Below, in pieces: positions 3,151 to 55,870 of a DNA stretch of 64,000 nt (position 1 is its first letter; the number at the start of each line of letters is the position of its first letter). The DNA comes from Ceratodon purpureus. Its lineage: Eukaryota > Streptophyta > Bryopsida > Pseudoditrichales > Ditrichaceae. The translations under genes were made by a program, and so were the position numbers. Location of the stretch: positions 6,120,630 through 6,184,629 of the forward strand of contig CM026430.1 in assembly GCA_014871385.1 (NCBI GenBank). The letters are read 5' to 3'. Under the pieces are notes generated by a model, which made no database searches, was not told the origin of the DNA, and saw only the letters and a program-made list of their open reading frames with translations.

Positions 3151-3918
3151 AGTAATGAACTTAAATCATCAATTTATTTTATCACAATTACTTAGAAGTA
3201 ATACAACATTTTTTAATATTCAAATTGAAAGAAATTTTAAGTGATTGAGAATAATAAATTGATTGTTTTTCATTTGAATTATACCTTCTAAAGATTGTCT
3301 AAATTTTTATTTGAGATACTATGTCATTTATTAGATAAACTTGTTTTTTCTTTTACTCATAAGTATATGTTTAGAAGACATTATAGATTAATGGTGCAGA
3401 ACTATTGCACTATTTTATGACTAGGACATGAACATGGTTTAGTGAGTAATAACCATAATATAAAACAATAAATTCAAGAATAAATATTTTATACTAATAG
3501 CATGTATTATTTTTCTTCAACCTTCAATTCATTATAGATTGCAACTAAATATTCTTCTTGAACTTCTATTCTTATATACTGTATTTGAATTTACAAATTT
3601 TTTAAAAAATTGTTTAATTAAACATCATTGATATCAAATTATATAGTAAATATTAATTAGAACAATTTTCATCATTTAGATTATAAAGTTTAAAGTTTTG
3701 TGTTATTTCTTAAGGTAATTGTTTTTGTCTATGACTTAGGAAATTAACATGGTTTATTCATGGGGTATTACAATCATGCTCATTAGATTGTATTGAAAAA
3801 TTCTCCCAAACAATTAACAGGTTAATCATTGGAATTTTATCAATTTTTGAGGCATCTATACAAAGAACATGTTTTCAAACCAAGATGGTGTTCAAAAAAT
3901 CATATTTCAATACAAAAA
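3151..3918. other. AT-rich intergenic DNA
   Basis: Very AT-rich; no ORF, repeat unit or RNA gene that I can support. Confidence 0.6.
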
Positions 3919-32052: not shown

Positions 32053-32105
32053 AACCTCATATTCGTTTATTTGGGACTATTCCACAGATTTGGAACTCCG
32101 ATTAA
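32053..32105 (+). repeat. Left terminal inverted repeat
   Basis: 53 bp starting AACCTCATATTCGTTT, pairing with 55819-55870 with no substitutions and one extra C near its inner end. The similarity stops abruptly on both sides. Confidence 0.9.
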
Positions 32106-34678
32106 GTCTTATATGTCCAAGAATTTGTACTAAGAGTTGTGAATTATTCACACGTGTATTATGAGATATGGTGTATTTCGACAAATAATGTATTACCTTC
32201 ATCAAGTTTTATGATGAAGTTTTTTAACCAATTAACTAATTCAAAATTGACTGTTGGGAATACAGTTTACCTTTAAATGATCATGTTTTATGTTCTACTT
32301 CAATGAATAGTTCAGTAGGCACAAAATACAATGAAGCCAAAAAAAAAAATGAAACAATATTCCCATTTACAGGATAAAATGCAAAATGAGGTGATGCCTA
32401 CACTACACCTTACTTCCACTACAGTTTTTATATACAGTTCATATAAATTTAAATTAACAGTAGGTACACAAACTAACAAGGTGTACATAATATGTACCTC
32501 CAAACATATTAATGTATGATTAAACAAAAATGATCATTAATGTTGAGCTACATGAACCATGGAATTGAAAACGTGATTGGAAAGTATTAAGGTACATGCA
32601 TCTACAACGGATAACTTAAGCATTTCAGCATGGTGTAGTTCTGGTTATGAAGAAGGAGGTATAATGGGTTTGAAGAAAAATAAGGTTCGGGTTTAGGGTA
32701 AATTGTTTTCTAAAAAATTAAGCAAAATTGAAATTACTACAAATTTTTAAGTGCAAAAGCGGATCAGACCCAGAAGCAACATATAGCTTCACCCATAAAG
32801 AACAAAACCAAGAGTAGTGAAGGACAAGGCTTCCATTACTTAGTGTTGCTGACTTTTGCAGTCACAGTCGCATTCTATTAGATAATGCATTTTGAATCTA
32901 CTGTTCATCAATGTTCATCAATTATCCGCTACTGGTTTTCCATTGTTCTATAACCAAGAAGCCTACTTATTGGTGATGGGCAGTTATCCGTTATAGATGC
33001 CTGTCCCTTATAATTCTATCACTAAAGCTTTAAAAGCTGGAGTGGTTGGATTCTATGAGAGTTATCCAGTACATGTTGAATTGTTTCCTACAGATTCACA
33101 TTAAGAATCTATATTGAAGAACACATATTGTTTATACTAAAAAATGATACTAGACTTTATCTCAATTAAATAAATGTAAATCCGTTCAATAACCTTACAC
33201 AAAACCAAATCTAAACATGGTCTCAAATCATAGGGAGGTCTTTAAATTATCTTAAGGGTAATTTTATGCGTCAGCAAATTCTTCTATCCTCCTCAATGTT
33301 TATTTTAACACAATCTTGTTATAGCGTGCTTTTATATATTTTCATGTAATGCACATTCTGTGTGCAATTTTGTGTATGGACCTTAAACATATTGAAAGCT
33401 AGAAAACTACATAAAATCTTATATATTTTAAATCGTCAAAAATTTAGATTAAAACATACAATGAATGGTAAGATTTTTTGGTAGAATATAGAAGTTTTAT
33501 ACATTTATGTGTATTTTTTCATGAAATGTACATTTCAATATTCCTTTATGGCTTTTCTTTAATCATAAAAAGTTTTATATCAAGTAAAATAAGTAAGTAA
33601 TGTTTTATTATTTTATTATAATATAAAATGATTAGACATGTAGTTACATTGACAATAAAAAACACTGAACACAATGGATGTTTCACTTCTTTTTACCATG
33701 TTGTTGATTAATAGCTAATAGAATTAAATTGCATTGAAAGTATAGGGGCCAATAATTTCGGATGGGCTGTACAGAAATTAATTATCTATTTCATATGAAT
33801 ATATTAAACAAAGATTAGAATTAATAATGGAAATTTTGTGGTTAATAAAAAATGAAACATAATCTCCACCAATCAGACAGAAATTGTAATTACCAATGAG
33901 GTCTATTTAATAATGAAGAACTAAAACATATCATGAAAGTGATTTTGGATTTAGAAAACTCACATGGGCCTCATTTTATGAGAGTGAAGCTTGAATTTAA
34001 TATTAAAGACGCAACACTGTTTCGGCACCAAGAACACTTAAAGTACTTTAGAGTCATTGGTAGTAAGTCTGGAGCTGAGGACAAATTTTAGATAGTGCAC
34101 ATTTGTAAAATTTGTCAAGTTGAGGATGCTTAGAAGTATCAATAATAAAGGCCAAATTATTTGAATTGTTCATAAATCATTAACTGATTTTAATTTTTCA
34201 GCGACATTGCAATTAAATACATAGACCAATTACATATTGAAGATAACAATGTCAGTTAAATACAATACTACAAGCATTGTGTTGTTATCTACTTAGATAA
34301 ATTACAATTTATTTTTTTGTAAACATTAATTTGATTCAATTCTCCGGATTGTACACCAATTAGATCTTATATTATTGTAGAATAAAAAAATTTACATTAT
34401 CTGTTCTATCCATAACTTTATCCTATAATGTTCAATGCTTATTTGAATTTATCAATGCTTTTCTAAATTTATCTTAGCAGTCAAAGAAGCATCTTATATA
34501 AAATTGCACCACTCTTTTTGTACACAAGAACATTATAAATTGAGAAACAACCAAAAGAGAGAGGTACAAATGGATGTTGCAATGTAAATTTTCCTTGAAT
34601 AACATTGTTGACACACGTGTACAAGAGGAAGTGTAAATCATACAGACACTGCGTCTAAGAAAATGTCTCAGAAAATTG
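32106..34678. other. Left arm of the giant element
   Basis: 2.6 kb of AT-rich DNA with no ORF over about 80 codons and no recognisable subterminal repeat array. Confidence 0.5.
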
Positions 34679-37600
34679 CTACTCACTATCAGAACCACTT
34701 GCAACTTCAGGAGCATTTGGCGCAGCTCTAATGCTGTAAGCTATTTTGGCTAAAGCTAATATAATATGACGTTTTGGAATTTTAACAGCTCCTGTAGGCG
34801 AAGTCTTTGGTTTCCATGCTGTTAAAATGCTATCTGTGCTTGTAAATTGCTCGTCGTACGTGAGGTCTGGTTCCCACTTGAAGTTGCTTGTTGTATCCCA
34901 ATTATGATATGGCATCGACCTTGTACAAGTTTGGATGCAAGGTCTATACCATTTCACCTTGATTTGTTTATAATTCACATGACCAAATGATAAAATTGGG
35001 TTGGATGTGGCTTCTGCAAGCCATATTGGAGCTTCACTATCTACTGCGGGTCGTAGGAGTAAGAAATGTCCTTCATGACAATCACGTCCTACACGAAAAG
35101 GAGTTGGACGAAGGCTCCTTGGTCCAATATAGTGGTCATCCTCTCCAAATTCATCTTGTACTTGTCCATTAGAATTGTATAAAGTTTGAACATCAAATGT
35201 TTGACGAGTTCGGGGCCAGAAGCCCATACATAAGACATCAACTGCTTCCATCTCATCATCAAGAAGAGCATCTTTCACACCTGTCCAATACTGCACAAGG
35301 TGTGCATGTTGACGAGTATATTCTCCAGAAACATCCGCAATTCCAACGTTTATCCAATGTTGGATGAAACCATTAATTCCTCTCACAATTTCAGTATGTC
35401 CTTTCATTGCGCGAGGGAGGACAGCTCTAGGATTTCCATGAGGGAGTTTTGGCTTTCCATCGTCGTTTTCTTTCCACAATTTTATACCTTCCTCTGGTCT
35501 CCATTTTTCATCTGTGCATCGCAACTTATATTGCATTAGAGGCCATCCATTAGCACCTCTATAAAATCGAAATTGTCGACCCCATGAATGTCCAATAAGC
35601 TCATCTTCACTGATGTATTCTTCAATAAAGGATTTAAAATCTGGAACTTCTTCAATTAGAGCAGGAATAACGGGTTCATCTTCAAGATCCATATAGGATT
35701 TCATCAACAAAGGAATGGTTGGATAGTCATTTTCGCGTAATTTCATGCTCCATCGTCCGAAAGACGCATCTATGTCATCATGAGTATGTCCTACTAAGAG
35801 GAAAGAAACCTGAATTTCCTCAAATATGCCTTTTGCAACAAGGAGGGACCAGAAGCACATGACATGACGGCTTTTATTGTCCTTCCAACAGTTATCAAGT
35901 TGTATATGCAAAATAGGCGGTAGTTTAACAAAGTCCTCTAAATTCGGTAATGAAGGCTTCAATGGTACGGAGCTAATGCATTGCTCTGAGCCTACAAGGA
36001 CTGCTTGATACAATTCAGTTGAGCCAGCACCTAAAAAAAGAGAGCTAGGATTTGAAGACTTCGGAGGATTTTCTAAATCGCGAAGAAGTTTGGCGATGGA
36101 TCCAATTGTTTGGTTACTGTCTGCAGGATAGAGGTCAAGAGTGTAGTGCGCATATTTTTTATCGCCGTGTCCATGAGCAAGCATTCCCGTTACGGAAACC
36201 GGAAGCTTCATTAAACCATCAATTGCTTTGCTTTTTGCAGCAAAGCAAGGAGAAGATGTCTTCGAATGATCCATCTTGTCGTGCATAATGCACAATACTT
36301 GTAACGGGCGATAACATGCTAATGCTCTGCTCAAGTAGTAGAATGCGCGGCATGCTTCTTGCTCACGGAGATGAATTTCAAAGAGTTCCATTGTGTGAAT
36401 AAAACTACGAGAACCATAAGCTTGGACGTCTCGAAGTTTAGTAAGTTCATCACATCTTGCACATCGAGCAAAGCCATCTCCACGGCGCTTTATCTGATAC
36501 TCTGAAAAATGTTGTTTGCGATATTTACTACAAGATGACTGAGAAATCAACTTTTGTCCGCACTCTTTTTGTACCTGTGAAGAAACAAGGCATATTTGTG
36601 AAATTGTTTTAACTATGTAAAGCACGACATGGTAAATTGGAGGAAAAAAAGTGATAGAATTACTTCAACGTGAAAAAGAATTGAAGAGGCATGTGATGAT
36701 ACTTTACTTTGTTTACTTCATCTAATATGTGCTTCCACTTTGTTCCGCTAGGAAGAATTTTCTCAACAACCTTCTTCCCCTTTAACAGCCCAGACTTTTT
36801 AGTATGAGATCTATTCGGCATGGAATCTGCCTTTGAAGAGAGGATCATCGACATTGTTTGTATAGCTTGTGCAGCACTAATTGATGTCTTTTTCTTTCCT
36901 TTCCCTCCATGGTATTGAGGACGTCGACCGAGTGCTGCATATTTTTGATATCGATAGAAATCAGTCTTTGACACACCAAAGATCATTCGCCATGCTTGCA
37001 TGCACACTGCTCTTCCTTCAACAATGCATATCTTCGAAGATGTCCCAGGCCTATAATGGAAGTTTCTGTGAACGCCAAGTTTAATACCATCTTTGAACTT
37101 TGTATCTGAGTGGTGCATCTCATATCGAAGCGTTTCTACCAAAGTAGTGTTGAATTGACTCAAGCACTCGCTTTTGCAACATGTACCACTTAATGTTTCA
37201 GTAATTGACATCTCCTCAATAAGTATATCTTTTCGCTTTTTGCGACCACCTTCTCGAACATGACGTGATGAAGAATACTTGCGCCACCCAAGTCGCGCAC
37301 CAATGCGAGCCACATTTATAGACATTTGCTGATTGTACTGACATTCTTGATAGAAAAGACTAACACCTTCAAATAAGGTGTTCCTAATTGGCCAACGACG
37401 AAGTGTACGCGGTTTAAGCGAACTTCCATCTTGTAGGACCTCACAAACGACAACACCTACGTAATCAACTCCAAGCACTGACCGTCCGTCTATAGATTGC
37501 CATTCTTTTGCAAATTCGACGTATGCATTAGCCACAGCCATCCCAACATCATCCACAAGGCAAACTTCTTTCTTACACCACTTGTCTCTACTCAAGCCAT

Positions 37601-37685
37601 TGCAAGGAGGAATTGGATTGTCCTCTTCTGGAAAGAGGATTACATTTTCTATTTCATCGTCGTCTTCTGAAGTGGAAGTTGACTT
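34679..37685 (-). CDS. Transposon-borne DUF7869-like protein, candidate DDE recombinase
   Basis: Two exons are certain, 37685-36708 and 36574-34679 (AAA|GTAAAG and TTCACAG|GTACAA, phase 0), together about 957 aa. The 5' part lies upstream: the exon acceptor TTTGTAG at 37686 requires at least one earlier exon, perhaps at about 39170-39110 (LTKRTPLQLDTLISQ). Visible features are basic and Cys-containing N-terminal segments (SGTCCKSEC, GFARCARCDEL), then three conserved-looking acidic stations: IMHDKMDH (Asp about 425/428), HIQLDNC (Asp about 553) and GHTHDDID (588-595). The LDN...GHTHxDID signature recalls the widespread eukaryotic family annotated as DUF7869. Spacing of a first Asp, a beta-strand D-N and a later D-rich helix fits an RNase-H-like nuclease, but that is inference. 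Together with the divergent ParB/methylase-like gene it is the likely mobility gene of the element. Confidence 0.65.
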
Positions 37686-39480
37686 CTACAAACACCATCC
37701 AACATGTTAACCAAAAATTAAAAAGGTAAAATACTTGTAAAAGAATGTATGTAAATGCATAACATTGGAATCAGCTCCTTGGCTTACATTTCATAAATAA
37801 AAGTAGCTTGTATCTACTTCTATTGAAAGTGTTAAATGTGCCAAAGAAGATTTGTACCATCTCAATATGCTCTCTATTTTTTCCCATTTCAACATGCGCT
37901 CCACCAGTCTCGAATCAATATTGTGTGAAGACTGTAAAGAAAATCCTGAAATATAATTTTTGAAGGATTTAGACAAATGAAACATGTTCATCAAAACTTT
38001 CAAATACAAATAGTTTGTCAAGAACAACTGAAATATGTACCTTTTTGACTCGAGAGAATTGCAAATGCCAATTGTTGAGAAACCTATGAATTTTGAAGGA
38101 TGTATGATTAAAGGGGATGGTGCATACATTTCAATTCCAACCAAAAACATACGATCATTTAACAATTATTTTCAAAAAGGGTAACATGCACTACCATAGC
38201 ACATACTATGTTATGACATCTCCACATTGACAGTTATGTCTGATCAACCATGCGCATGAGTCCAAAGTATTAAGTTTTTCTAGGACTTCGTAGAACTAGA
38301 AATTCTTCTACATATCAAATTGTATTGAAAGACATGAGTAGATGAAGTAACGTTACATTTAATAACGGAACTCTTCAATACGAGTACATGGAAAACATAA
38401 CATATATAGGAGAACAATAAATCAATAGTAGTGCCTAAGCGTAGCATTTCATAGTACTGAAATGTAAACACAAAGTTTTTTAAGAGCACTGTACCAATTT
38501 GGCAACAAAGGATTACATAATCCAAATAATGGATGCTATTGGAACTTGTTCTGTTCTAGTAATACTCAATGTGAATCATTAATCTCTTTATCTAGATAGG
38601 ATCTCCGATCCAAGTAAGGGCCGGCGTGAATACAGCGTTTACTCATCTAGGTAATGAACCAATGCTCACCAGACAAAGGATCACTAATACCAAACTACGC
38701 ACCCCTTTCAGAAATAGATCTCTTTTTCTACTATATGTATAGAACCAAATTCTACATTTGAGGCATCAATCCAGTAGTCAATTGACTACTGGAATCTGGT
38801 GCTCTGTAGAAGAGATCCAAGTACACGATCTTATTTATACGTATTAGTTCCATAAAAGCATCGTAGATCAGACCGTAGGAATAATTTCAAATACATTTAA
38901 ATAATTGAAAAGAAGTAAATAAGAGATCCGAAATTATATCGAGATGGATAGCATAGTAGAATTTGAAGCACAATTCTGTCTTTCACGATGATGATGATAT
39001 CAACGTCAATGTAGACACAAAATAGACAGGTGAAACAACAGAGACAGTGTAGTTCATAACATTGTCGAGGCTCTCTATATGCAAACCAAAGTGATTGCTT
39101 AAATTGTACCTGATGGTAGATGCGTTGTGATATAAGCGTGTCCAATTGAAGTGGAGTGCGTTTTGTCAAGGAAATCTTCTACAACTGAACATTTTGTTAG
39201 TACTCAAGCGAATGTGATTCAAAGAATTTGATGCAAACAAAGGAATGTTGCTATTGAGTACTAAAGAACTATCCAATAAGCTAGGGGCTAAAAAACAAAT
39301 ACATTCCGAGAAAGTGTGAAGAAAAACAACGCAGATCAAAAACATTTAGTGCCTAAAAGCATTGCAAAGGAACACAAAATGAGTAGCTTACAAACCTCAA
39401 CAAAGAACGTTTTGCTTGAGACGGCAAACCCGCAGGAGACACGAGTTGCTGCAAAAATCGTCAGGGCTATAGAAAACCAG
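37686..39480 (-). other. 5' introns, leader and promoter of the left gene
   Basis: Contains candidate upstream exons of the minus-strand gene (39170-39110 ends CATCAG before GTACAA; about 39470-39420 ends GTTGAG before GTTTGTAAG) and one perfect 22-bp palindrome at 38771. The first ATG exon could not be fixed. Confidence 0.4.
38771..38792. promoter_or_regulatory. 22-bp palindrome, site 1 (perfect)
   Basis: Half-site CCAGTAGTCAA is followed immediately by its exact reverse complement. It lies in the upstream/intron region of the left gene. A binding-site role is inference from repetition and position. Confidence 0.7.
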
Positions 39481-40444
39481 TGGTATGAGAGATGAGATTG
39501 GAGGCTACAAAAATCGAACTATACTCTGCTAACCCTAAAATGATACAAGTTTCAACATTCGCCTATGAAGTGTTAGATATACAAGTGCAAAGTCTGCAAC
39601 CTAAATGATTCACAAGTTAACAAAAACTGCGACAGAAACAAGCTATGGTGATGCAAAGAGCGGGCATACGCACAGAGAAGCATACAAAGAAGAGGGAGAA
39701 GGAAGAAGAGTGACGAATGAAGGAGAAGGGTGTGGGAAGGAGGGGGTGGTTTGGCGGCTACAGCGTACAGCATTTGATACTTATGTCAACTTAACATTTG
39801 GCGGCTGCAAACCCTGTCATTATTTAAACTTGACAGTTGGCGGCTGCAAACGATCTATTATGAGGGTAGGGCTGTCCTAGCTAGTTTGACCTAATCAAGG
39901 CAGACTGAGTGGGTAGATTGGATAAAGTTGGTGGGTAGATTGGAGAAAGTTGGTAGATGTCCGCTCAAAGGAGAAGAAGGGGGTTACTAGATTCTAACAT
40001 GTTTAAAAACATTCAAAAAATAAATTTTTAGATTCATGATGAGAATATTGGAATACCAAAATACTTATAACAATTTCTAGATTCATGAATTTCTAGTTTC
40101 ATGATAAAAATATTGGAACACCTATTACGTCACATAACATGAACTTCACATCCTTAAATAAAACTTACAAATTCATTTCATATTAATTGCACATTAAAAT
40201 TTATCTACAAATGTTTTGAAAATAATCATTATTTTATGCATCAAGATTGAATCCAAATAGCATATTCTAATTCATTTTCTTACCTTGGATTTAATTTGCT
40301 TTTTAAGTATTTTATTGGATTATTAGAAGTGTCAAATTTCTATATTTATTCTAGAAGTTTTCATGTAGACTACATTTAAACTCTATAAATATGTAGGATT
40401 GCAAAATTAATATTTGTGAAATTAGAAAACCAGTGACATGGACC

Positions 40445-40493
40445 ATATATATAGTCTAACCTTGGACTTAGTTTGGGTGACATTATCAAGGTT

Positions 40494-40551
<58 letters not shown>
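40445..40551. repeat. Hairpin followed by (TA)n microsatellite
   Basis: ATATAGTCTAACCTTG (ending about 40464) pairs with CAAGGTTAGACTATAT (from 40487) around a 22-nt loop. The right arm runs into about 27 TA repeats (40498-40551). The hairpin is absent from the second copy of the internal duplication. Confidence 0.8.
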
Positions 40552-42084
40552 TTATTTTTTTTTGATGAATATATATTTATATGTATTGTGATGCAATATA
40601 TAGATATATTGCAATACATATACATACATCATCAATTTCATATGTAAATCAATTTCCTTAACAAGCTTTAAGCCATAATTCATATCCAATAAATGAAGTA
40701 ATATTTAGGAGAAGTCATAGTTACTAGTTTCTCTGGAAAATTCTACATCTTATTCTAAATTACATATCGAATGATGATGAGAAATCAAGGTTAAGTTTAA
40801 TTAATGTATAGTGAAGACTCTCAAGTCATTTTTACACAGAATATGTTCACTCAAAAAGTGTAGAGAATTTTCTTGGACCATTTATTGTAGATAAGATTGT
40901 GGATTTCTAAAAGATTCACTTCATAGGATAAATTTTTACATATTCCTTTTAAGGTAATGCGATAATTTATGATGTTCAACATTTATTTTTATAAAGGTAC
41001 TCAAACTATAATCTAGAGAAGTGAAGGTATTATTTTTAAGTTTACACAGAATAAAATCAAGGTTTTATTTCATATGTATAGAATATATGTTTCAGTCTTG
41101 TTTTAGAAACACTTGTTATTTGGACTATGTAAATGTTCAATACCATGACTTTCAAACTTACCATGCTTGCATCTTTTACTATTCAATACCATGTACATAT
41201 TAACACATGATTCATGTATTAATTCTTAATTAAAAATTAATTAAGAATTGTATTAAATTTATTAATTTATTAATTATATTAAGATTATAAATTAAATTCG
41301 ATTATAAATCAAATTTTGGAATTATAGATATAATTTATAAATCAATTTTTTAAATTAAAATCATAAATTATAAATTAATTGTTGAATTAAAGTTTGGAAT
41401 GTATTCGTGTTTGAAATATGGATAACACTCAAATATTAATTATTAAAACCAACAATAATTATAAATATAATATGATTTCTATCTTCAATGCTAAATGTAC
41501 AATTTAAATATTATCTAGTCATATATAAATATCTTAGGAATTTAGGATATTAGCATATTAAAGGATATTATTTTCATGTTATACCAAGAACATGTAGTAC
41601 CACTAAATTATACACTAATACTTGTACATGTAAGTGTAAATATTTAGGTGATATTAGAATTAATTAAATTATTATCTTAATCATTGTACATGTTGCAACG
41701 TATATAAATCTCAAACATTATTTATGTAAATAGAATGTTCTAAAAAGTATGCAAATTATTTCAATACATGATTACCGAAAATATTTTTTGAATTAAAAAA
41801 GAAACTGTCATTTGATAAAATTTTCATTAAACATGCTTCAGAGATTTTGAATGCTTAACATAGATGATTTAAATATTTAGAAAACAATTTACTCTTGAAA
41901 AACCAAATTTTTAAAAGTCATTTTAAATTTTTAGAACACGATTTATTTTTGGAATTAAATCAACTTGACAATAAAAGTTGGACAAAAAAAAGGAGAAAGA
42001 AAATAGAACTGAGAATGTAAAAGGAAAAAGTAAAAATAACTGAAAACGCAAAAGGAAAAAGTAAAGTTTTTGCTGCACCGAAAA

Positions 42085-42306
42085 TAATGATGTTGGCTTG
42101 GGGTCACGTCAACACCAAATCTAATATCTCGTGTGGATTCCGACGCTGGGGTTGCTCTAGACTTTGGAAGCATCGCTTGCGTCTGGGGTTCGGGAGCGCG
42201 TGCTGGGTTGAGTGCGAATGGCCAAGAAATTCAGCCTCCTCCACCGTTCGCTGCGGACTCCACCGGCGGCACCTTCTTCTGCAGAGGTGCTTTTTCAAAA
42301 TCTAGG
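42085..42306. other. GC-rich islet 1 inside the giant element
   Basis: A sharply GC-rich segment (GGGGTCACGTCAACACC, then CGGGAGCGCGTGCTGG) within very AT-rich DNA, placed directly after copy 1 of the internal duplication. Short ORFs on both strands have no recognisable product. It could be a regulatory island or captured host DNA. Confidence 0.45.
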
Positions 42307-43702
42307 AAATGAGATTTTCATGTAGACTACAATTAAACTCTATAAATATGTAGGATTGCAAAATTGATATTTGTGAAATTTGGATAGTTCCAACAAACTG
42401 TTTGACATAAGATGTTTATTAGTGAAATCCAACGTATCTACTTCCTTTACACATAGTTAATAGAAATTTGATATGTAATTCAAAAGTTATCAATGGTTGA
42501 AGGTTTTAAATCTAAATGTAGGCAACAAAAAACATTTTCAAATATATTCACCAAAATATATATATACATACATCATCAATTTCGTATGTAAATCAATTTC
42601 CTTAACAAGCTTTAAGCCATTCATATCCAATAAATGAAGTAATATTTAGGAGAAGTCATAGTTACTGATTTCTCTGGAAAATTCTACATCTTATTCTAAA
42701 TTATATATAGAATAACGGTGAAAATCAAGGTTAAATTTAATGAATGTTTGGTGAAGACTTTGAAGTCATTTTTTACACAGAATATGCACTTGCCCACTAG
42801 AAAACTATAGAGAATTTTGTTGGAAAGTTTATTGTAGATAATATTTTAGTTTTCTAAAGGATTGAAAAAAACCTGTTTTAGAAGTTTAGGCAAAAATTAC
42901 TTCCGATTGATTTTTCAAATTCAAGTTTCAAATGGAGTTTACCATCATTCAAGGATTAAAAATATCTCTGGAAGTTCAAGTTCTTTTTTGTTTATTGATA
43001 TTAAGTAAAGTCGATCAAGGTTTTTGATTGTTTTTTCATACACTGATGTGCTACAATTACTGTGTTGGTTCAGATTTCTTTAGAATAAAATACATGGCGA
43101 TAAATTGATTATTTAGTGCTTGAAGAGAGATTGTAATTATTTGATGTGGGTTCTTCAACTGTAAAAATAGAGCCATATTTTTTCAACTGCAACATCAAGT
43201 ATATAAATGTACTTTAAACAACTTGAGTGATCACATTTTAATGTTTTCATGTCTTATTTTTCAAAAATTTGGGAATAAGATATAATATTTGTACCAATAC
43301 ATAATTCATGTTGTTAAGTTTTCAAACAAGAAGTTCAGTGACGATCGTTGTATTTTTTTAAAAACTTTTATACTTCTCAAATGAGATGTTTAAAAATATT
43401 TATAAATGAAATCAAAAATTATAATTAACAATACAATTTAAATATTATAAATCTATGAATTAGTAGTTTTAATATAATTTAAAATTTTAAAATTCATAAT
43501 TTGAATTTTAAAAATTGTAATTTTAATATATAAAAAATTATAAATTATAATATGTAAAAATTCATTTATAATTTCAAATTAATTTTTGGGACACTATCAT
43601 TTACTAATAAACCCACCTAGTGGTCAAGCAAACAATTCACTTATGCAACAAGAACTCTACTATCTAGATAGGAAGATCCAGATGGGACTTGTTAATCATC
43701 AC

Positions 43703-43804
43703 TGATAATCTCGTGCTTCCGTCGTGGCATGAAAATAAGTAATTATCATCTTCCTTGATAATCTTGTGCTTCCATCGTGGCATGAAAATAAGTAATTATC
43801 ATCT
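43703..43804. repeat. 53-bp tandem duplication
   Basis: Two adjacent units, each TGATAATCT..GTGCTTCC..TCGTGGCATG.. and ending in ATTATCATCTT, differ by about three substitutions. They lie in the 1.6-kb segment that interrupts the second copy of the larger duplication. Confidence 0.8.
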
Positions 43805-45529
43805 TTACTCAGTCTTTGATATGAAGGAAAATGAGAGTTCATTACTATTGTATAACTTTGTAGGTAGCTGATTTGAGGATTTTCACTCTCTGACGGAAAT
43901 TCAAGTCATTACATGAGGTTGCAGAGGGCAACACATAACATGCTAACATACGAAGTAAGAAACGTTACTAAATTATCACCCAACGCGTTTTGGCATTCAT
44001 CAAACATGCATTAGATATATTCTTTAATTGGAATTATAAATTTTAATATAGAAAAAGAGAATTGAATAATAAAATCGTGAATTTTAAATTAATTCATAAT
44101 TTTTTGAATTAATATCAACTTGAGATTACTTCCTTGATTATAAATTTTAATTAATTCAATGAGTCATAATTAATATATATTTCTACATATTATTTTAAAT
44201 TGATTCAAAATTAAAATTTTATATTCAACCTGAATTAATTTTTATTATTAAGTTTGAATTAATTTCTACAAATTCACCTTAACTTATATATTTATTCAAA
44301 ATCAAATATTTGTTGTCAAAAGGCAGATAGTATACATACATGACTTGTTAGAAGTACAATATATCAAGTAGAAATTTTGTACCTACGATAAATTGATTAT
44401 CATTCTGCAAGTGATATTACAAAAAGCAATCTAGTGACTCAGGTTGACTTTGCTATTTCGCATGTTATACAATAAAAGATTCTCTTCATATGATAAATTT
44501 TTACATATTATTTTTAAGGTAATGCGATAATTTGTTGTTTTTTTCAAATAGCAGAATGAGAAAAGGAAGTATGTATATGATGTTCATCATTTATTTGTAT
44601 AAAGGTCTCAAATTAGAATCTAGAGAAGTGAAGGTATTATTTTTATTTTATACAGAATAAAATCAAGGTTTTATTTTATATGTACATCTTTTACTATTCA
44701 ATACCATGTACATATTAACACATGATTTATGTATTAATTCAAAATTAAGAATTATTTATAAATTATATTAATTTATAAATTATATTAATTTATTAATTAT
44801 ATTAAAATCATAAATTAAATTCAATTATAAATCACATTTTTGAATTAAAATTAGAATTTGATGCATCAATTTTTGAATTAAGGACCAAGGTTTGAAATGT
44901 ATTTGTGCTTGAAATATGTATAACACTCAAATTTTATAAACCAAGAATAATTTTTAATATAATAAGATTTATATCTTTAATGCTAGGTGTAGAGTTTAAA
45001 TATTATTTACTCATATATAAATATCTTAGGGATTTAGGATATTAGTGCATGTTAAAGGATACTATTTTCATGTTATACCAAGAACATGTAGTACCACTAA
45101 ATTATACAGTAATATTTGTATATGTAAGTGTAAATATTTAGGTGATATTAGAATTGATAAAATTATTATCTTAATCATTGTACATGTTGCAAAGTATATA
45201 AATCTCAAACATTATTTATGTATATAGTATGCAAATTATTTCAATATATGATTACTGAAAATATTTTTTTTTGAATTCAAAAAGAAATTGTTATTTTATA
45301 AAATTTTCATTAAACATGCTTCAGATATTTTGAATGCCTAAAATAGACATTTTAAATATTTAGAACATGGTTTACTCTTGAAAAACTAAATTTTTAAAAG
45401 TTATTTAAAATTTTTAGAACACGATTTATTTTTGGAATTAAATCAACTTGACAATTAAAGTTGGAAGAAAAATGGAGAAAGAAAACAGTGAGAATGTAAA
45501 AGAAAAAAGTAAGAAAGGTTGACTTTGTT

Positions 45530-46240
45530 AGGGTGTGAGCTGGTAGGATAGGGAGGTGATGCTTACTGCGGGGGAGCGGTGCTCGGTGGCTGGGATGCGG
45601 TGCTCGGTGGCTGGGGTATCGAAGCGTTACTACGGGGGAAGCGGTGCTTGGTGGCTGGGGATGCGGTGGTTTAGAGCTAGCGGACCGAGCAGTGTGTGTG
45701 CGAGGGAGAGTGTGTTGGGCTGTGAAGCGGTGGTGGTGCGTTGGGCTGTGAAGTGGTGATGGTGTGTTGGGCTGTGAAGCGGTGGTGGTGCGTTGGGCTG
45801 TGAAGCGGTGATGGTGTGTTGGGCTGTGAAGTGGTGATGGTGTGTTGGGCTGTGAAGCGGCGGTGGTATGTTGGGTGTGTTGGGCTGTGAAGCGGCGGTG
45901 GTATGTTGGGTGTGTTGGGCTGTGAAGCGGCGGTGGTATGTTGGGTTGTGAAGCGGTGGTGTTAGTGGACTCGCACTGTAAGGAAGCGGCTGCATCGAAG
46001 CATTCAACAGGTTTGAGGCTCCAGGCGGTTCCTTTTGAGTTTTAGTTTATTTATTTCTTTTGCTCCGGAGGTTGATACAGGCGGGCCGTAACTCTTGGTT
46101 CAGATCATTTCGATCCTTGCTCAGGTGCTCGTGCAAGCTGTGAAGCGGTGAACCAGTCCAAGTTTTCCGGAGTCTGAAGTTGGTTCGGTGACTGGAGTCA
46201 AAGGAAGGAGCGGTGGTTAGTGCGTTGCTTTGTTCAAACA
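45530..46240. repeat. GC-rich islet 2 with GGGCTGTGAAGCGGTGG minisatellite
   Basis: At about 45690-45965 a unit of roughly 22-40 bp built on GTGTTGGGCTGTGAAGCGG is repeated at least eight times with variation. A related GCGGTGCTCGGTGGCTGGG repeat precedes it at 45577-45665. The block keeps a minus-strand frame open (His/Thr/Pro repeats), which I regard as an artefact. It follows the second copy of the internal duplication and lies about 1 kb upstream of the right gene, so it may belong to that promoter. Confidence 0.7.
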
Positions 46241-47012
46241 ACCAAGCAGGTTCTAGCCATTCAGGCCATCTTGTGTGTCTATGGTAGTTTGTTTTTTTTG
46301 TTTTGTTATTTTCATGTTTGAGAAATTATTGGATGTGAGCTGTAATTCTCTGATTTGGTTGTTTTGGACTGAAATTGAACGTTACTTTTTACATGTGATT
46401 GCACATTAAGATAAAAGATAAAAAATCAGTAACTTTAAGCGTTAAAAATTCTAAATTACGACGTAAATTGAATGAGTTAAAATAAAAAGTAATTATGTAA
46501 CTTAAACCACTTAGAGTTAATAATAAATTTGAGATAGTAATTATTTAGTTACTGAGGTATTTAGGGTCTGTAATTACTTAGGGTTATGGTAAAATTTATT
46601 TACCTTTTGCCCTAAAAATATTTACCTTGATAATTTTTAGATTTTTACCATAAGTAACTAAATTTTTACCATAGGACAGTAGGCCAGAGCCAACTATTTA
46701 GAGTTGCGCTTTTCTGGTTTACACAAGACACTAATTCTTTGTCTTATACATGCAGAGGACAAGCCCATCCAAGTTTTAATTTTGTCTCACATCGAACCTT
46801 TTAAGACAGCCTTTTGCAACACGAGGTATGTGATTTTTAAAAATAGGGAATTATCTAAATACTTGGAATAATTATTGAAATACTTGTCTAAATACAAAAC
46901 ACAACATGTATAAAATACATAATTTAAAGTACGATTATATTCCCAAGTATATATACAATGTATAGTTAGAGTAGTCATTGTTACCTTGTCGTATCATAGA
47001 GTTTTATTAAAT

Positions 47013-47034
47013 CCAGTAGTCAATTGCCCACTGG
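47013..47034. promoter_or_regulatory. 22-bp palindrome, site 2
   Basis: CCAGTAGTCAA-TTGCCCACTGG, two mismatches from perfect symmetry. It lies about 210 bp upstream of the ATG of the ParB/methylase-like gene. Confidence 0.7.
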
Positions 47035-47077
47035 ATTGGCCTCTCCTTTCGGTGAGAAAAAATTTTAGACTTCAAAT

Positions 47078-47099
47078 CCAGTAGTCAATTGCCCACTGG
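47078..47099. promoter_or_regulatory. 22-bp palindrome, site 3
   Basis: Identical to site 2 and spaced 65 bp from it start to start, with flanks AAATCCAG (here) and TAAATCCAG (site 2) also shared. Two sites in tandem immediately upstream of the gene suggest an operator-like arrangement, which is inference. Confidence 0.7.
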
Positions 47100-47225
47100 A
47101 CTGTGCTTTATTTTGATTTTGAATTTGTTCCATGCTTTTGTCAAACACAAATGTTGTTCTAATCTTGAAGTTATGAATTCATTCTACTTACATGTACTAA
47201 GTTGAATTCTGTTTTATTAGAGGTG

Positions 47226-50200
47226 ATGGCGCCACACAAAGATCGGGAGAAAGTGCCTGAAATTCCTTACTCCGGCGCGTTGAAGAAATTATTTGAACAA
47301 GTTGAAGATGTCAATTTCCCATTCAATGAAAATGATGTGAATGTTGGAAAGAAATATTACATTCAACGGAAGATTGCATCCCCTCGGCTCTGGTATTTGG
47401 AATTGCACAAGCTTCCTAGAGATGGTGGCTTTGCCTTTCGAGTTGCAGTGAATGGGGTGCTTCCACCTGAAACAAATCCAGCATTTGCAACAATCTCAAA
47501 TTTGATTGTTACTCATGTCAAGGTAAGTCATTCACACATATTTTTATGGGTTGAAAATGCTTCCGGAAGTGTTGCAAATTTAATCTTCAACGAAGATGAG
47601 GATAAGTTCCAGGCACGCTTGTTTACGGAGGGTCTGGTAGTGCACGAAGAAGCAATCAAGGAGATGATTGATGGACCTCTTCTTTCTACTGAAGATATTC
47701 GAGATTTGAACAGAAGTGCCGAAAGCATTACTCGTGTTTTGAAGCATATTCTTGCAACGCTGGAAGAGGTTAACAAACTATGTATGACAAGGGCATCTGA
47801 GGCATCTGGGAATCGAAGAACGAAGAAGACCGTAGTTCCAACTGTGATTATACCTACTGCTCCAAGTCGAGATAGATGTATTAAGGAAACCAAAAAACTT
47901 CCTAAATCCATTAAGGTGGCGGATGGAGAAGTAAAGGAAGGCATAGTACGGAGCGGTGGTGCTCGAAAGCATATAGGGACTGTAGTTGGTATAGAGGCTG
48001 ACAACGTCGATAGAAGAATTCCTTCATCTCACATTCAGACTACACTATTGGAACTCCGTGGAAAGAAAAAAACACCAGACTCTAATAAAGGGAGACATCA
48101 GCCGGAGGATGTTATGAAGCCACCATCTCCCGATACGAAGAGAAGGTTGGATATTGAGTTTCAAGGAGCATCCGGATCTGAACTTGTCCCTGCCCCTCTG
48201 AAAAGGAAGTTGAAAGAACGTATACATCAGCATCCAGTGAAGACTCTTGAAGGAAAGAGAATTGATTTTCAGGATTTTCAAGCTGAGCTCATTCAGTTTA
48301 AGGAGCGGAGTAAACCAATGTATATTTGGGGCCAAGACACGTTTCATATGATATCTGTTGATGCTATGCAGATAGCCCCAAATGAACTCAAGTACCGACC
48401 GTTTCATGAGTCGTTACTGAGAACTCTGACACAAATATTTCTCACCGCATTGCATCCTCAGAAACAGACTCTGACATTGATGCCGGCTTGCAAAGTAAAG
48501 CCGAAGTCATTTGAAGATTGCAAGGACGGGCCTTTCTATATCATTAATGGGCAACATACCTTTGCTGCGGCAAAAACTATCATTTCAAATCCTGATGTAC
48601 ACGAGGAGCAGAAAGAGAAGCTTCGATATTGGAATTGTGATTTTGTTTGGACAGAAGATCTTGTTCTATTGTCAGAACTTTCTCGTCGCACAAACAATAC
48701 TAATCAGCACGTATGGAATTCCCCAGAGTATCTTCTTCACATTCAATACACCCGGGATTTGTGGATAAACTATGATAGACCGGAGATGCGCCCTGGAGTA
48801 AAAGTCAACAGTAAGGAGCATAAAAATTGGAAGGTACACCTTATAGACTATTCTTGCCTTTGTATTTACTTTTATAATTTTTTTTATTAACTACTATCTT
48901 CATCCGATAGTCAATTGACCACTGAATTTTTACAAATATCTCGTGGTGTAAATCTAGGAATTCCAATTAAAAGCTGTTGAGACTTTGAACTCCATGAATG
49001 TGAAAAACCAAGGAAAAACAAGCAAGGAATATCAGGGAGAATTCAAAGTCATTTGTGCGGATGATGAACTTTATTCGAAGATCATGAATGCTTTCAAATG
49101 GTATGAAAGTGGCGACCTTTTAAATCCGGACACTGGGAATAAGTGGCGACATGAATCAGAGGCCTTTGACAACAAGGAGTGGACTCCAAAGCACACGGTG
49201 GCGTATACATTTAAATGTATACGATCTCTGGGAAGGGATAGTCTTCTTGAACTTGTTCAGAAGATCACCAACGGACTCGATGAGAATGGTAATCGTATTG
49301 AAGGAGGGCTCAAATATCCCAAAGTTATGTTGGGTGGAAGCAAGCCCAAAAAGAGATACACTTGTACTCTGAAGGAGTGGACAGACAGGAAGAAAGCAAA
49401 AAATGCTATAGTTCGATGGTTTGACCGCAAATATCCAAGGGAACTTTGGAATGGAGATCTGAATACTGAAGAATGGAAGGCGTTCAAGGAGCAGTTGGGA
49501 TTTACAAGTGCACATATGGATGAACTGATTCGAAGGGCAACCAAGCAATATCTTGCCAAGTTCATGAAGGTTAGTGATAAGCCAAAACGACAACAACCTC
49601 CTCCACCGAATGCCTTCCTTGCAGAAATGCAACGAATTCTGAAGAGGCGCACACCTACAGTTATTTTTTTTGCCCCTGTTCTTTCTTTCCTTCAAAGAAA
49701 TGGTACTATCTCTGAGTTTGCAAGGGCTAGAACTGATGGTGATTCTACTGATCTTCCTGGGCCCGTTGATGACCCAACGAAGTGGGTGACTGTACCACCC
49801 CGTGACTTCTCATTTGCTGGGGGAATCATGGATTTCCGTCAAGTTGACAGCTTCCTTGAGGAAGAAGAGACTGAGCTTCCTCAGCCTGCAATGAACTACA
49901 TATCTCTTATGTCCAATTTGGCGGTTCCACCCAACATTTTGATGGCCCCTCCATATTGGATGATAATTGCACACTCAAACCAGTTCAAAGAAGTGGAATT
50001 ATTCATTGAACACTATTTTCCTAATTGGATAGTTTCTGAAAGTCGTTATGTTCCAGCCGCCGGAGAAAAACATTTCTTCTCCAATTTTATCTTGAAGAAA
50101 GGAAATGGTGTCTTGGTTTTTGTTTTGCAAAATCCAATGTATCCTTCTATGGATTGGGGAAAACAAGTGGTTTCTGAGGAGCGGGAGAAGAAGATTGGTG

Positions 50201-52851
50201 AAGTTCGGGAGTTTCATATTCTTGAGCATGAGTTGAGAATGGAGGTTTATCTAAACTTTATATTGAAAATCAAGTTCTTGCTTGGACCACTCACTCCACA
50301 TGGTGACATATTATGCGTGACTGCAGGACGGAAGCCAATGATTGCTTCAGTGGTAAGTCTCTCAGTAGTCAATTGACCACTGGATATAAATTTGAATTCC
50401 CTCAATTTTTTTCTAGATGTCATTCTTTATAATGTTTAACAATGTTGTCTTTTCAGATGTGTCAAATGCGCCCTGTGGCTGTCACTCTTTTTGGTGGAGG
50501 TGATGCTACGGATTATTTGCGCTCCCATACTATTGGATGCTATCTCCAGGGCTTCAATCATTTGTTTGATCCATCTTTAAGGACGGAGGATACTATTGAC
50601 CCTGAGGGAATTTCACTTGAAGATACAGACCCTCTATCTCAATCTGACAATGACACAAGACTACAAGAAATACGTAGTAAAAAGCGGGCTGATAAAAGCA
50701 TCTTCGAAGATGAAGAAGTTCACGACCTTTATGAGTTCTCAAATGACTCTTCTGGAGAATCTAATGAAGAGTCTAATGTGGAAGTCGAATCAGATGATGA
50801 GGCTGTTCCACTACTCAAAAAGCTTAAGAAAGCTCCCGTGCCTTCCAACGCTCCAATCGATCCAATTATAGCCCCTATCAGGCCTCAGATGACAATGGGA
50901 TACCAGCGTCACTCTCGAGCAGCAGCCACACACGAGATTGACTCAAACCAAGATTTCCAGATATGTGGAGAATCCCCGGCTGGACAACTGTTCAAGAAAT
51001 CTTCATTTGCAACGTGTAGTTCTGGCATTGAACACATGTTGTTGACGGAACCATGTGGATCTGATAAAGGGACACAAGCTTCATCACCTTTCCATGACAA
51101 CCTTGTTGAAAGTACGATCTTTGAGACTCCATCTCCGTTTAACATTTTGCCTCATGATTCTAATGTAGTGCAAAATCCAATCATGGTGTCAACAGGTATG
51201 GACATAATAGGAGAACATGTTGGAGGAGAGGAATTTCCGCAGCAAGAAGACATTGATGCCAATGTGGAAATAACTCCATGTGTAGCACATGTTCATGAAA
51301 AATTAGTGGTAACCCAACCGGATCTTACAGTGACTTCCAGAGATGATCAAATTCTGGCACATGGTCGAAATGTGCCTTTGGCAATGTTAGAAAACAGAGT
51401 TGTGAAATCTGAACCACTGGATGATATTCTCACGACCATACCATTGAAATCTAATGAAGATGATCCTATCCTTATTGAGAGCGATGAAGATGATCATATT
51501 ATAAATACGGCTTGGAAGATGTATCCTTCAGAGTCCGACTCTGAGTTATCTGATGAGGCAGATAATTCTGTGGACAAAGTAATGACTGATGCAAAGGTGT
51601 CACAAGACAAGGCGCTCAGAATCCAGCTCCAGAAAATATCAAAAAGCAAACTTTCTGTCAATAAGACGAATCGGCAGAAAAACCGGGAGTTGGTGATGAA
51701 AAATCTAAGACTTATGCAGGAGTTGACGAAGGAGAGAGAAAAATATCAGAAATTGATGAGCAGTGGGCTATTTATTGAGGCACCAATCACAAGTGATAAT
51801 CCTTCAATTTCAGCTGGTCCAAGCCACCAAGCGACTACATCTATTGCGTCGGCACCTGAGTTGTCTGTATCTGAATGTGACCCTCATCATCAAGCAGATA
51901 CCAATCTTGTTGGACGAGCCCGAGAAGACTATATTCCTGCTACTCAGGTTTAATAATTTCTTTCCTTGTATTTGTATTGGCTTCTTCTTACATTACATTT
52001 CTTTTTTATGACAGCCAATCTAACTTCCTTATTGATTATTTTTTAGGAATCTGTGCTGAAGAAACAACGTGAGGCAAATATAAAGGAAGGCATGCCTCCT
52101 AATGAAAGCAAGGTTAGTATTTCTGACTTCCTATAAATCACGTGAATTAAAAATTTCTGTATAATTGGATGTCTTTGAGTCACACTCACTATCGTACGTA
52201 TTTGTGCCCAAATTAAATGAAGGGCGATGTCTGTGTATACAGGAAATATGAGTGACATCATAGGACGGATTGCGTTGTTGAAGACTAGGGCACCATCCAG
52301 AACAATATCAAGAGTACTAGTTTTTTTACTAAATGCCGTAGGATAAGTATTACGTATGTAAATGTCTAGAAAGTGGATGTCTAGTACCCATTTCGGACAT
52401 TAATTTTGTAATTGATTGCCAAAAAGTTTTTATAAAGTATTATCTTTATTTTACAGGATGTCTTTATTGCAATGGCTAGGACCATGAAGCATAGTTTTTC
52501 ATTGCAAACCTTTTAAAACAAAAATATATCATGTCCTTTTTACATTGAGTCTTTTAATTTTATGTAGTCAAATTAATTATTTATCTATACTCATCTATGC
52601 AGCATCAAACTCAATTTACTCATGTACACAAACGGAAAAATTGCTTGTACAAGGAGAAGTACGAAGGGTATTTTTCTGATTTAGAGTCTTCAACCGCTCA
52701 AATTACCAAGAAAATTTCTAAGCCACCTGAAGGTTGCCGGACTCGCCTCCTCCAAAAATTAGAAGATGTAATTGGAGACGATATTGATGAAGTAACATCA
52801 TTACCACATGTAATGTTGACATCAAAAGACATAGTGATCCCTCATGAGTGA
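47226..52851 (+). CDS. ParB/DGQHR-like plus beta-class methyltransferase-like fusion protein
   Basis: Predicted about 1,604 aa from five exons: 47226-48833, 48958-50352, 50457-51947, 52047-52112 and 52597-52851. All junctions are GT-AG and phase 0. The ATG at 47226 follows an acceptor-like TTTTATTAG. YIINGQHTFAAAKTI (Asn about 441) resembles the DGQHR/ParB nuclease motif. Later, a hydrophobic strand before NPMYPSMDWG (928-937) looks like motif IV (D/N-P-P-Y), and GDILCVTAGRKP (985-996) like motif I (GDxVLDPFAGSG). Motif IV before motif I is the order of beta-class N4/N6 DNA methyltransferases. ParB-methylase fusions are well known in phages and bacteria. Motif I lacks the FxGxG core, so catalysis is doubtful. 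The C-terminal third is acidic, with a possible SUMO-interacting motif (ILIESDEDD, about 1339) and a coiled coil. Domain calls are by eye. Confidence 0.62.
48904..48925. promoter_or_regulatory. 22-bp palindrome, site 4 (intron 1)
   Basis: CCGATAGTCAA-TTGACCACTGA, within the 124-nt first intron of the ParB/methylase-like gene. The central AGTCAATTGAC core is intact. Confidence 0.65.
50362..50383. promoter_or_regulatory. 22-bp palindrome, site 5 (intron 2)
   Basis: TCAGTAGTCAA-TTGACCACTGG, in the 104-nt second intron, 9 bp after the 5' splice site. Confidence 0.68.
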
Positions 52852-53883
52852 TAATGAAGTGGTTTTAGATCAAAGAAAAGAATGTACTATTTGCTAGGAT
52901 GTAGTACAATTTTCTATGATTTCTAGGAAATCAAGTAAACAATGTATTTACCACTATAAATTTGATATAGTTAGCTGACATACAGTTTTTTGAAAATGGA
53001 AAAAATATTATTCCAATTCAGAAAACATAGAGTTTAGGCATAGGAATCATTCAAGTTTTAAAACTGTACACTTAGCAACATGTATTAGTTATGAGGAACA
53101 TGGATAAGTACTAGATTTATGTATTTATTTGACTACTAGAAGCTTCATAGAGGACCTGGTCTTATTTACTTATATTACAGGACATTTTATAGATACAACA
53201 AAAAGTACAATAAACAGGACAATTCAAGGGCTTATCCAAATTTCTTTTCTAGCTGCATTACAAAAATTACTTAAAAGTAATGAAAAATGCAAGGAATATA
53301 ATCTGTTTCACCAATACATATTCTCAACTTCAACTTCCCTTCTTTCCTCTGATGCAAGCTCAAACTTATGTAGCTGCTCCATCTCCTTTCACTTCATTTA
53401 GTAAAGATTGCACGTTTTTGTCTGTGTATATCGATTTTTCTCATGGTTGGATTGGTGCGTAAAGGCATGATGATATGCCAAGTTGATCATTGCATAGTTA
53501 CAGTAGAGTGTTTTGCCTTCCCTTCTTATAATTCATATAATGGATTCCCCTTTGAATTTTAGATTTTGCCTAAACCTTGCTACACCTTAGATTATACATT
53601 CAAGTACTATATTTAGACATGAAGGATAGACAATGAAGTTTAATTTCTTTTAAAATAATTTTTATTTTTTTAACAAATTTATGCAAAAATATTGTTTTTT
53701 AACAACTTTTAACTGTACCAATTTTTAGCCCACCTACAAGCCCGAATCCGAGGTCAAAATCCGAAAACAATTAATATCTTGGAAGACATTAAGTCCACTT
53801 AATATTTTCAGGAAACAAAACAGTCATCCAAAATAAATGAAAACATACGGATGAAAATTTGTAGATGAAAATTATGGCTTTAA
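52852..53883. other. Right arm of the giant element, part 1
   Basis: AT-rich sequence after the right gene; nothing recognised. Confidence 0.5.
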
Positions 53884-54138
53884 GCTGTGAAGTACCCGCT
53901 CGCAAGTCTAGGATATGAGACCATGTACGACATTATTGTGAGAGATGTCAACAGAGACTTGTCAGCTCATGCGCAGGCCATCTTCTTAGGAGTTGCAAGG
54001 GCTTTGATTGTAGCCTACCATGCAAACAGAGACCCGTTGAAGAAGCAGGGTTTGTTCACACGAGACTCCCGTATTGTAGAGAGAAAGAAGTATGGTCTGA
54101 ACAAGGCTCGGAAGGCACCACAATACTCCAAGCGTTAG
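53884..54138 (+). pseudogene. Captured 3' fragment of plastid ribosomal protein uS9
   Basis: A frame of about 84 codons without a start ATG encodes the C-terminus of organellar uS9: YPLASLGYETMYDIIVR, then LGVARALI, then PLKKQGLFTRDSRIVERKK and KARKAPQYSKR at the stop. The C-terminal TRDSRxVERKK...PQ(Y/F)SKR block is highly conserved in bacterial and plastid S9, which binds the 30S head. Upstream is a TAA at 53881 or, alternatively, an acceptor-like TTTAAG at 53884, so this corresponds to the last exon. The N-terminal half is absent, and the usually Gly-rich SGQA segment is changed (DLSAHAQA). About 400 bp of 3'-UTR-like sequence follows. It lies inside the giant element 1.7 kb from the right TIR, so it was probably captured from the host. 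Confidence 0.75.
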
Positions 54139-55818
54139 TTTGTCAATGCAGTAGAAAGTTTGGTGGCCATTTAGATCAAGGTTGGGTCCCTTTCTTGTAT
54201 TAATTTTAGAAATCTGTTGACATAATATTAATGCTCATTTTTTTGGCTTCTCCTGTTGTGAGAGAGTATCATTAAGGTATGGATATCTTTTTGTAAATTA
54301 TTTTGGTCTGCTCTAGGTACAGTATGATGCCATCTTGCTTCTATCTGTCACGAGGTTTTTACTATCTGTACGCATCTACGATGCCGAATGTGCTTGGTTT
54401 ACAGTTTGAGAAGAATATTCGTGTAGGATTGCCGAAGGTGATTGTAGAATCTGACAGTAGGATTGATGTCCATCAACATTGTTTTTGTCAACTTTATTCT
54501 AATTTTAAACATTGGTTTGAAACTCATACTGTAACTTGAAGCTAGGGGCTAATAAACAAATACATTCCACAAAATTAAGCGTGTGTTTTCAGCAATTGCA
54601 ATTAAAGATATTCATTTCAACCCCTAACTTTCTTTGTGTTCTTGAAAGCCTAGAACCTCGAAACTGCGATTGTTTACTCGTATGCACTCCCAAGGGTGTA
54701 AATTATTTTTTAAATCTTTTTTAAAGACTTTCAACCGTAAGATCTCGAATGTAAGCCTTTTTATAGATATAGGTGCAAAACTGACCATAGATTGATTATT
54801 GGTTTCAAGTTCGTGACATTCAAATTTCGTGTACAAGTTTTTTTGGGCATTCCTTTCCAAGCACTGCTTCCACGGTGAAATGTGAGACTTGAACATTACA
54901 GTCATATTTTTTCTCATGTAGCTAAATAAATTTGGTGTGCTCAAGCAAAATTATAGGGACTGAAAACGCTTTTCAATCATTCATGGAAATTATGTTCTAT
55001 ACTAAAGAATGAAAAACACAAATAGTAAAACACAATAACAATTTGTGAGGTAGGGATAAAGTGACCTTTATCAATTTGTGATTTTCCAGTAACAGAATTT
55101 TTAAAATATTAAAATTAAAAAAAACTCGCAAACACTTACAAATTTCTAAATGAAAAACTAAAAAATTCGTGGACACTTTGAAGCTTCTCTTTGTAAGTAT
55201 TGGAGGCTGCCTTTCTGAAATTGCTAAACTTTATGACTTGGGTCACTATGGGCTTTTAGTATTGACTTGGTTATGAACATATTTATTTTATTTTAAAAAT
55301 TTTAAAAAGCCTAATTTTAGACTGGCTGCCACGGATTTGAAACCTAAAATTTCTAGATGAAGGTTCAAAAATTTGAATTGGGCTTCAAATTTTTTACTGC
55401 ATAGACCTTATCGCCAAGGAAGAACCTAGTAAAAAATGAAGCAAAAAATATTACTTTTAATCTCTTCATCTAGGATGGCTGAAATTGCAAAAATCCATTT
55501 TTAGTTTTAAGGATAGTTTGCAGTCAAATAAAATCCTCTAGCACAAATCCTATAGCTTACAAATGTATTTGGTCTATGACCTAAGATATACATAGAAGAT
55601 ATTTGAGATACAATTACTTCATTTTTTTTCTCTCACATGGGGAGGTCTTTTTATTTTCTGAGCAAGTTGCAAGGATATGTATAGAATGCGGAATAGTTTA
55701 TGTAAAATGTAAAAAAGTTAAAATTTCTTCTTCAAATAATGTACTTTCAACAACTCATTTATGATTGACCTCGGGCTTTTACTACAAAATATTTACCTTG
55801 AGAATGCAAATTCAGAAA
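54139..55818. other. Right arm of the giant element, part 2
   Basis: Begins with 3'-UTR-like sequence of the uS9 fragment. At 54541-54568 a 28-bp sequence starting GCTAGGGGCTAA directly repeats one at 39280-39307 with a single mismatch. The rest is AT-rich without coding potential. Confidence 0.5.
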
Positions 55819-55870
55819 TTAATCGAGTTCCAAATCTGTGGAATAGTCCCAAATAAACGAATATGAGGTT
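55819..55870 (-). repeat. Right terminal inverted repeat
   Basis: 52-bp inverted copy of 32053-32105. The outermost six bases read GAGGTT on the plus strand. Sequence outside (CATTGAAGAAATGAG) does not match the left flank. Confidence 0.9.

Follow-up and report, generated by a model that had tools for sequence, protein, structure and literature searches.

Transposons of the Sola1 superfamily generate 4-bp target duplications, and the account of an accessory gene in one giant member, Sola1-1_Ec32 of Ectocarpus, reportedly draws on Iyer 2011 and Petroll 2025. In this 21.5-kb element from a brown alga, the accessory gene lies on the strand opposite to that of the transposase and encodes a protein described as a combination of a ParB-like domain and a DNA methyltransferase with 4mC or 6mA as its predicted product; accessory proteins of this kind are also ascribed to transposons of green and red algae (passages of PMC12477816). 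Sola1 is also listed for the moss Physcomitrella (PMC9033089), and 4-bp duplications are given for Sola2 (PMC3627910). Genes of the TET/JBP type are carried by fungal KDZ, EnSpm, Plavaka, and other transposons, and the same source assigns 8-bp duplications to Zisupton and duplications of 2 to 5 bp, with mostly 5'-CA..TG ends, to the CMCT clade (PMC12730594). A bacterial fusion of a ParB domain to a methylase is found in Bce_0392 of Bacillus cereus (PMC5512222).

The locus described here lies in a 64,000-nucleotide stretch of the Ceratodon purpureus genome (referred to as the window; C10:6120630-6184629 in a 362.5-Mb assembly of 151 contigs). It is a block of 23,818 bp (window positions 32053..55870, no strand assigned), delimited by its end repeats, by copies of these ends elsewhere in the genome, and by the reading of target duplications, and is very probably a giant cut-and-paste DNA transposon of the autonomous type with two genes. 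Its closest published relative, by layout, appears to be Sola1-1_Ec32, which has a similar size, an accessory gene opposite the transposase, and the same ParB-like plus methyltransferase account in the passages that describe it. The two differ in their hosts and in that a 4mC/6mA methyltransferase is predicted for the alga, whereas the moss domain is putative and has APPY at the position of the catalytic tetrad. The passages on Sola1-1_Ec32 contain neither a palindrome array nor a capture of ribosomal protein S9, both of which the moss element has; the palindrome, with sites upstream of each gene and within two introns, is new relative to these passages.

The Sola1 entry for Physcomitrella has in common with the present element a moss host, the Sola superfamily (likely in our case), and 4-bp duplications as judged from the Sola2 value. 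The fungal TET/JBP transposons, as far as the cited passages describe them, likewise combine a DNA transposon with a DNA modification gene (putative here) but differ in their duplications (8 bp in Zisupton and 2 to 5 bp in the CMCT clade versus 4 bp in the moss element) and in their ends (5'-AAC here). Bacterial and phage ParB proteins of the Bce_0392 type would share with the second gene a fusion of ParB with a methylase, putative here and judged by motif, and a search of exon 1 of this gene against phage records gave no sequence match. The sequence-only reading could not assign this gene combination to any named superfamily. That statement holds in part: the layout closely matches the published giant Sola1 of Ectocarpus, and membership in Sola1 is likely.

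Ends, copies, and target duplications

The terminal inverted repeats, located by self-alignment and by reading of the ends, occupy positions 32053..32105 on the plus strand (beginning with 5'-AACCTCATATTCG...) and 55819..55870 on the minus strand. They are ∼53 bp long and start with 5'-AAC, and the left repeat holds, as seen by eye, two tandem TATTC...GG blocks. With the flanking bases included, the segments 32049-32105 and 55819-55874 align in inverted orientation and differ by a single mismatch and a single indel (self-BLAST E=3e-19); the inverted repeat with one indel had been recognized in the sequence-only reading at exactly the same coordinates. The flanking 4-mers, read as the two copies of a target duplication (no strand), are AATT at 32049..32052 and CATT at 55871..55874 and agree at three of the four positions, that is, the duplication of the window copy itself is imperfect.

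The left 88 bases have at least 26 matches in the assembly, with at least 10 facing pairs and at least 6 unpaired ends (all three counts are lower bounds). The facing pairs are found on C10, C12, and C2 (two on each) and on C1, C11, C6, and C13, with spacing from 8.7 to 59.6 kb. Perfect 4-bp duplications (AAAA, GGAG, TTAA, TCTG, and TCTA) flank 5 of the 10 pairs read. The C2:22.05M pair is flanked by GGTA on either side once an additional A at the left edge is allowed for, the C13 pair (ATGA/GTGA) resembles the window pair in having three of four bases in agreement, and the flanking 4-mers of the C2:17.46M and C12:13.33M pairs do not match. Two properties of cut-and-paste DNA transposons with terminal inverted repeats, a target duplication of fixed length (4 bp) and facing pairs of ends at several loci, are therefore both seen here. 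The element family has transposed with a 4-bp duplication, and the mobility that had been inferred from the window is borne out by dispersed copies with duplications of variable sequence. A search of this one assembly with the joined flanks, representing an empty site, matched only the two flanks themselves, which are unique.

A duplicated TTAA is characteristic of piggyBac, Kolobok, and Sola3, and TTAA-like targeting had been suggested for this locus. This suggestion fails because the 4-bp duplications differ in sequence among the pairs, TTAA having been seen once beside AAAA, GGAG, TCTG, TCTA, and others; in addition, in the 10 pairs read, the terminal AA belongs to the repeat and not to the target. 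The 4-bp length agrees with the usual value for Sola1 and also with that published for Sola2 (PMC3627910).

Four of the paired copies (C2:17.46M, C2:22.05M, C11:14.68M, and C6:89.85M) have the subterminal sequence of the left side at both of their ends and are apparent inverted left-left dimers. The C11:14.68M and C6:89.85M copies contain two inverted transposase matches each.

The DUF7869 gene and its sister families

The minus-strand gene has a main exon at 34679..36574, which contains the DUF7869 domain and the motifs HDKxDH, DN, and GHTHDDID (Pfam and family alignment), and an upstream exon at 36708..37685 (splice sites assigned by eye, phase 0), beyond which no 5' end was found. Its product matches Pfam family PF25273 (DUF7869) with E=9.9e-46; nothing else in Pfam scores above the cutoff, and no other transposase appears at E values up to 1. 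None of the papers searched mentions DUF7869 by name. In its own genome, the domain has at least 69 matches, many of them open frames with 50-63% identity (67 of the 1317 first-look candidates were scored). The HDKxDH, DN, and GHTHDDID motifs are invariant across three aligned families and could represent the DDD/E triad. The transposon flavor that the sequence-only reading had attributed to one of the genes is accounted for by this DUF7869 gene.

Besides the family of the window element, two diverged families were examined. Family 2, represented by one copy at C2:9.2M, has the ends AACACTGTATTCGG and AACGGGATATTCGG with TTTT on both flanks (read by eye), the length of the duplication being uncertain because TTTT is a homopolymer. 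Family 4, the distant one, has the ends AACACCATATTC and AACATCATATTC and also shows the 5'-AAC...TATTC end; its 25-base end, allowing up to 3 mismatches, occurs at 276 sites, versus 0 for the reversed control. Of 10 fetched family 4 pairs, 9 have perfect 4-bp duplications, all different (AATA, CATG, GAAG, TATT, CTAG, TATA, AGTG, ATAT, and ATAC), and 1 has none. In three diverged families, a DUF7869 gene is associated with ends of this kind, and the domain, the terminal 5'-AAC...TATTC sequence, and a duplication of 4 bp travel together. Since a distant family has both this end and 4-bp duplications, DUF7869 very probably marks the transposase, and an unnamed Pfam domain becomes tied to defined transposon ends and to a 4-bp duplication. 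In the proposed mechanism, the DUF7869 protein would act as a transposase of the DDD/E type: after recognizing both tandem TATTC...GG blocks of either end, it would cut the element out and join it to a target site opened by a 4-bp staggered cut.

Among the 67 DUF7869 matches listed (two short matches on C11 were left out), 36 are located on C6, which, at 110.5 Mb, makes up about 30% of the assembly and is perhaps a sex chromosome. At C6:84406883-84413288, three DUF7869 matches are arranged in tandem with a spacing of 2,312 bp.

Two explanations of the block dispense with a transposase. A non-mobile host block that happens to lie between inverted repeats of chance or segmental origin would fit the imperfect duplication in the window and the unique flanks, but is extremely unlikely in view of the 10 or more facing pairs that share these ends, with perfect 4-bp duplications at five of them, and of the perfect duplications in 9 of 10 pairs of the sister family. 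An integrated virus or a Polinton-like element, with which the size of more than 20 kb, the inverted ends, the prokaryote-flavored gene, and a Carlavirus C4 profile listed for the transposase with E=0.18, below the cutoff of that profile, would agree, is scarcely more probable: no viral Pfam family scored above the cutoff in the window proteins scanned (open frames in part), and three proteins compared with PHROGs gave no viral family above the cutoff. Searches with single exons found no relatives in viral contigs (three exons) or in phages (two exons), and the 4-bp duplications also argue against such an origin. A cut-and-paste transposon mobilized by the DUF7869 protein thus remains the preferred reading.

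The second gene and the cargo

On the plus strand, the second gene comprises five exons, 47226..48833 (with the ParB-like stretch near its end), 48958..50352 (with the start of the methyltransferase-like stretch), 50457..51947, 52047..52112, and 52457..52516 (with the stop codon), the first three from the translation, together with a genome search for exons 1 and 2 and an alignment for exon 2, and the last two from splice sites assigned by eye. The introns are in phase 0 (splice sites by eye), and the product has 1539 amino acids. The presence of two divergent multi-exon genes in the block, as originally proposed, is confirmed by the translations and the exon analysis. The prokaryotic flavor ascribed to one of them is supported at the level of motif resemblance: inspection by eye suggests a likeness to a ParB/sulfiredoxin domain, with IINGQHTxAAAK, at the end of exon 1 (conserved stretch 48186..48833, plus strand, RPFHESL ... 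YIINGQHTFAAAK) and to a permuted N4/N6 methyltransferase in exons 2 and 3. Searches of the second gene against Pfam, NCBIfam, PHROGs, and PDB returned nothing above the cutoff, neither ParB nor methyltransferase. The catalytic tetrad of N4/N6 DNA methyltransferases is [DNS]PP[YFW]. At the position aligned to DPPY, the window has APPY, and the three other families compared have VVPR, NVPY, and DPEV; a diverged C8 copy of the window's family has the canonical DPPY. The second protein may consist of a ParB-like and a methyltransferase-like part, and could act on the element's own DNA, either in regulation or in protection from silencing. If so, giant transposons that are equipped with an accessory gene of ParB-like character extend from algae to a moss.

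The second gene has at least 63 matches in its own genome, with identity down to 27% (44 of 688 candidates scored), and several copies show stops. At no fewer than 10 of 24 second-gene loci (grouped by hand, with two short DUF7869 matches on C11 left out), a DUF7869 gene lies within 60 kb, in divergent orientation in nine cases and on the same strand in one; the other 14 loci have no DUF7869 neighbor among the matches listed. The second gene thus accompanies the DUF7869 gene, usually divergently, and both genes are found together again in other families, at about 27-40% identity; a 21,657-bp family 4 element with both ends carries a second gene at 27% identity (E=2e-19). In eight exon comparisons with the diverged C10b, C7, C1, and C8 copies, dN/dS ranges from 0.28 to 0.58; against the near-identical C12 copy, from which few changes are available, the values are 1.05 for exon 1 and 0.26 for the other comparison.

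These data bear on two further alternatives. The second gene could be a passenger that contributes nothing to the element, as the 14 loci lacking a listed DUF7869 neighbor and the stops in several copies might indicate; the recurrence of the pair at 27-40% identity and the dN/dS values between diverged copies make this improbable. It is less easy to set aside, though still somewhat unlikely, that DUF7869 elements form a superfamily separate from Sola1 that independently bears a similar ParB-like accessory gene. The likeness to Sola1 comes from a published description, and accessory genes may pass between superfamilies, given the algal reports (passages of PMC12477816). Against such a separation stand the size and the opposite-strand layout, as in Sola1-1_Ec32 (PMC12477816), the 4-bp duplications, as for Sola2 (PMC3627910), and the listing of Sola1 for Physcomitrella (PMC9033089), so far as these sources describe them. 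A probable affiliation with Sola1 is the reading that we favor.

The host gene fragment noticed earlier in the block is the C-terminal exon of ribosomal protein S9, captured at 53884..54135 on the plus strand (PF00380, E=4.4e-21). This fragment is present in six copies of the window's family, four with paired ends and two near unpaired ends, and in three further loci, with 85-86% identity, that may be host genes; its capture probably predates the spread of the family. Families 2 and 4 have, 3' of the second gene, a frame for a NIF/FCP1-like phosphatase (PF03031, E=1.4e-8 and 1.5e-13), which has no match in the window. The two genes of the window element are separated by an AT-rich spacer with internal direct repeats (40358..45516, no strand; composition, self-comparison, and repeat scan), and a repeat scan also found a 26/78-bp minisatellite in the region between the genes, at 45710..45961 (no strand).

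Outside the element, the genes of the window look plant-like by eye (P450 and NBS-LRR). A 48-bp tandem repeat with 28 units at 19923-21273, open in several frames, begins an apparent TIR-NBS-LRR gene (by eye), and an ∼850-bp direct repeat, 96% identical, occupies 2326-3156 and 7601-8452.

A palindrome of the window's family

A scan of the window for the 20-bp palindrome CAGTAGTCAATTGACTACTG (no strand) found a perfect site at 38772..38791, upstream of the known transposase exons, two sites with 2 mismatches each upstream of the second gene (47014..47033 and 47079..47098), and sites in its intron 1 (48905..48924, 3 mismatches) and intron 2 (50363..50382, 1 mismatch), versus a chance expectation of 0.00 for the window. 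Genome-wide, 53 forward sites have up to 3 mismatches, compared with 4 for the reversed control. Among the 50 of these 53 sites that were listed, all 23 with 0 to 2 mismatches are in or beside copies of the window's family (20 inside paired ends and 3 adjoining copies of the family's genes); of the 27 listed sites with 3 mismatches, 12 lie within or next to family copies, and the remaining 15 do not. A single copy was inspected for each of families 2 and 4, and both copies lack the array.

Of the 13 intron sites that could be read, 12 retain the core TCAATTG, the exception being intron 2 of the C4 copy, with TCAGTTG. Comparison between copies revealed no conservation of the sites beyond that of the surrounding intron or promoter sequence: identity in the palindrome and in its surroundings is 17/20 versus 79/92 for C8 and 15/20 versus 69/88 for C4, and the intron 2 palindrome of C7 has changed more than its surroundings (16/20 versus 70/72). 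The palindrome array is ancestral to the window's family, and selection on its sites is not supported.

The palindrome is a candidate target of the second protein in the window's family. A tentative extension, which we regard as unlikely, is that the element brings along a system for epigenetic control or against silencing that is sequence-specific, in which the second protein would recognize this family-private palindrome with a methyltransferase part turned reader; that the sites show no extra conservation lowers its probability slightly. If it were true, the palindrome would be the target sequence of a transposon-encoded ParB/methyltransferase-like protein. In either case, a candidate target for a transposon-encoded DNA-binding protein makes the idea of self-modification testable.

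Another palindrome-like sequence, CAGTAGGCAATTGGCTATTG, is scattered over eight sites that lie apart from the listed copies of the window's family (C2:8482642, C4:1098002, C4:3367915, C5:4766160, C6:7680570, C9:14537325, C10:8119756, and C12:13423896).
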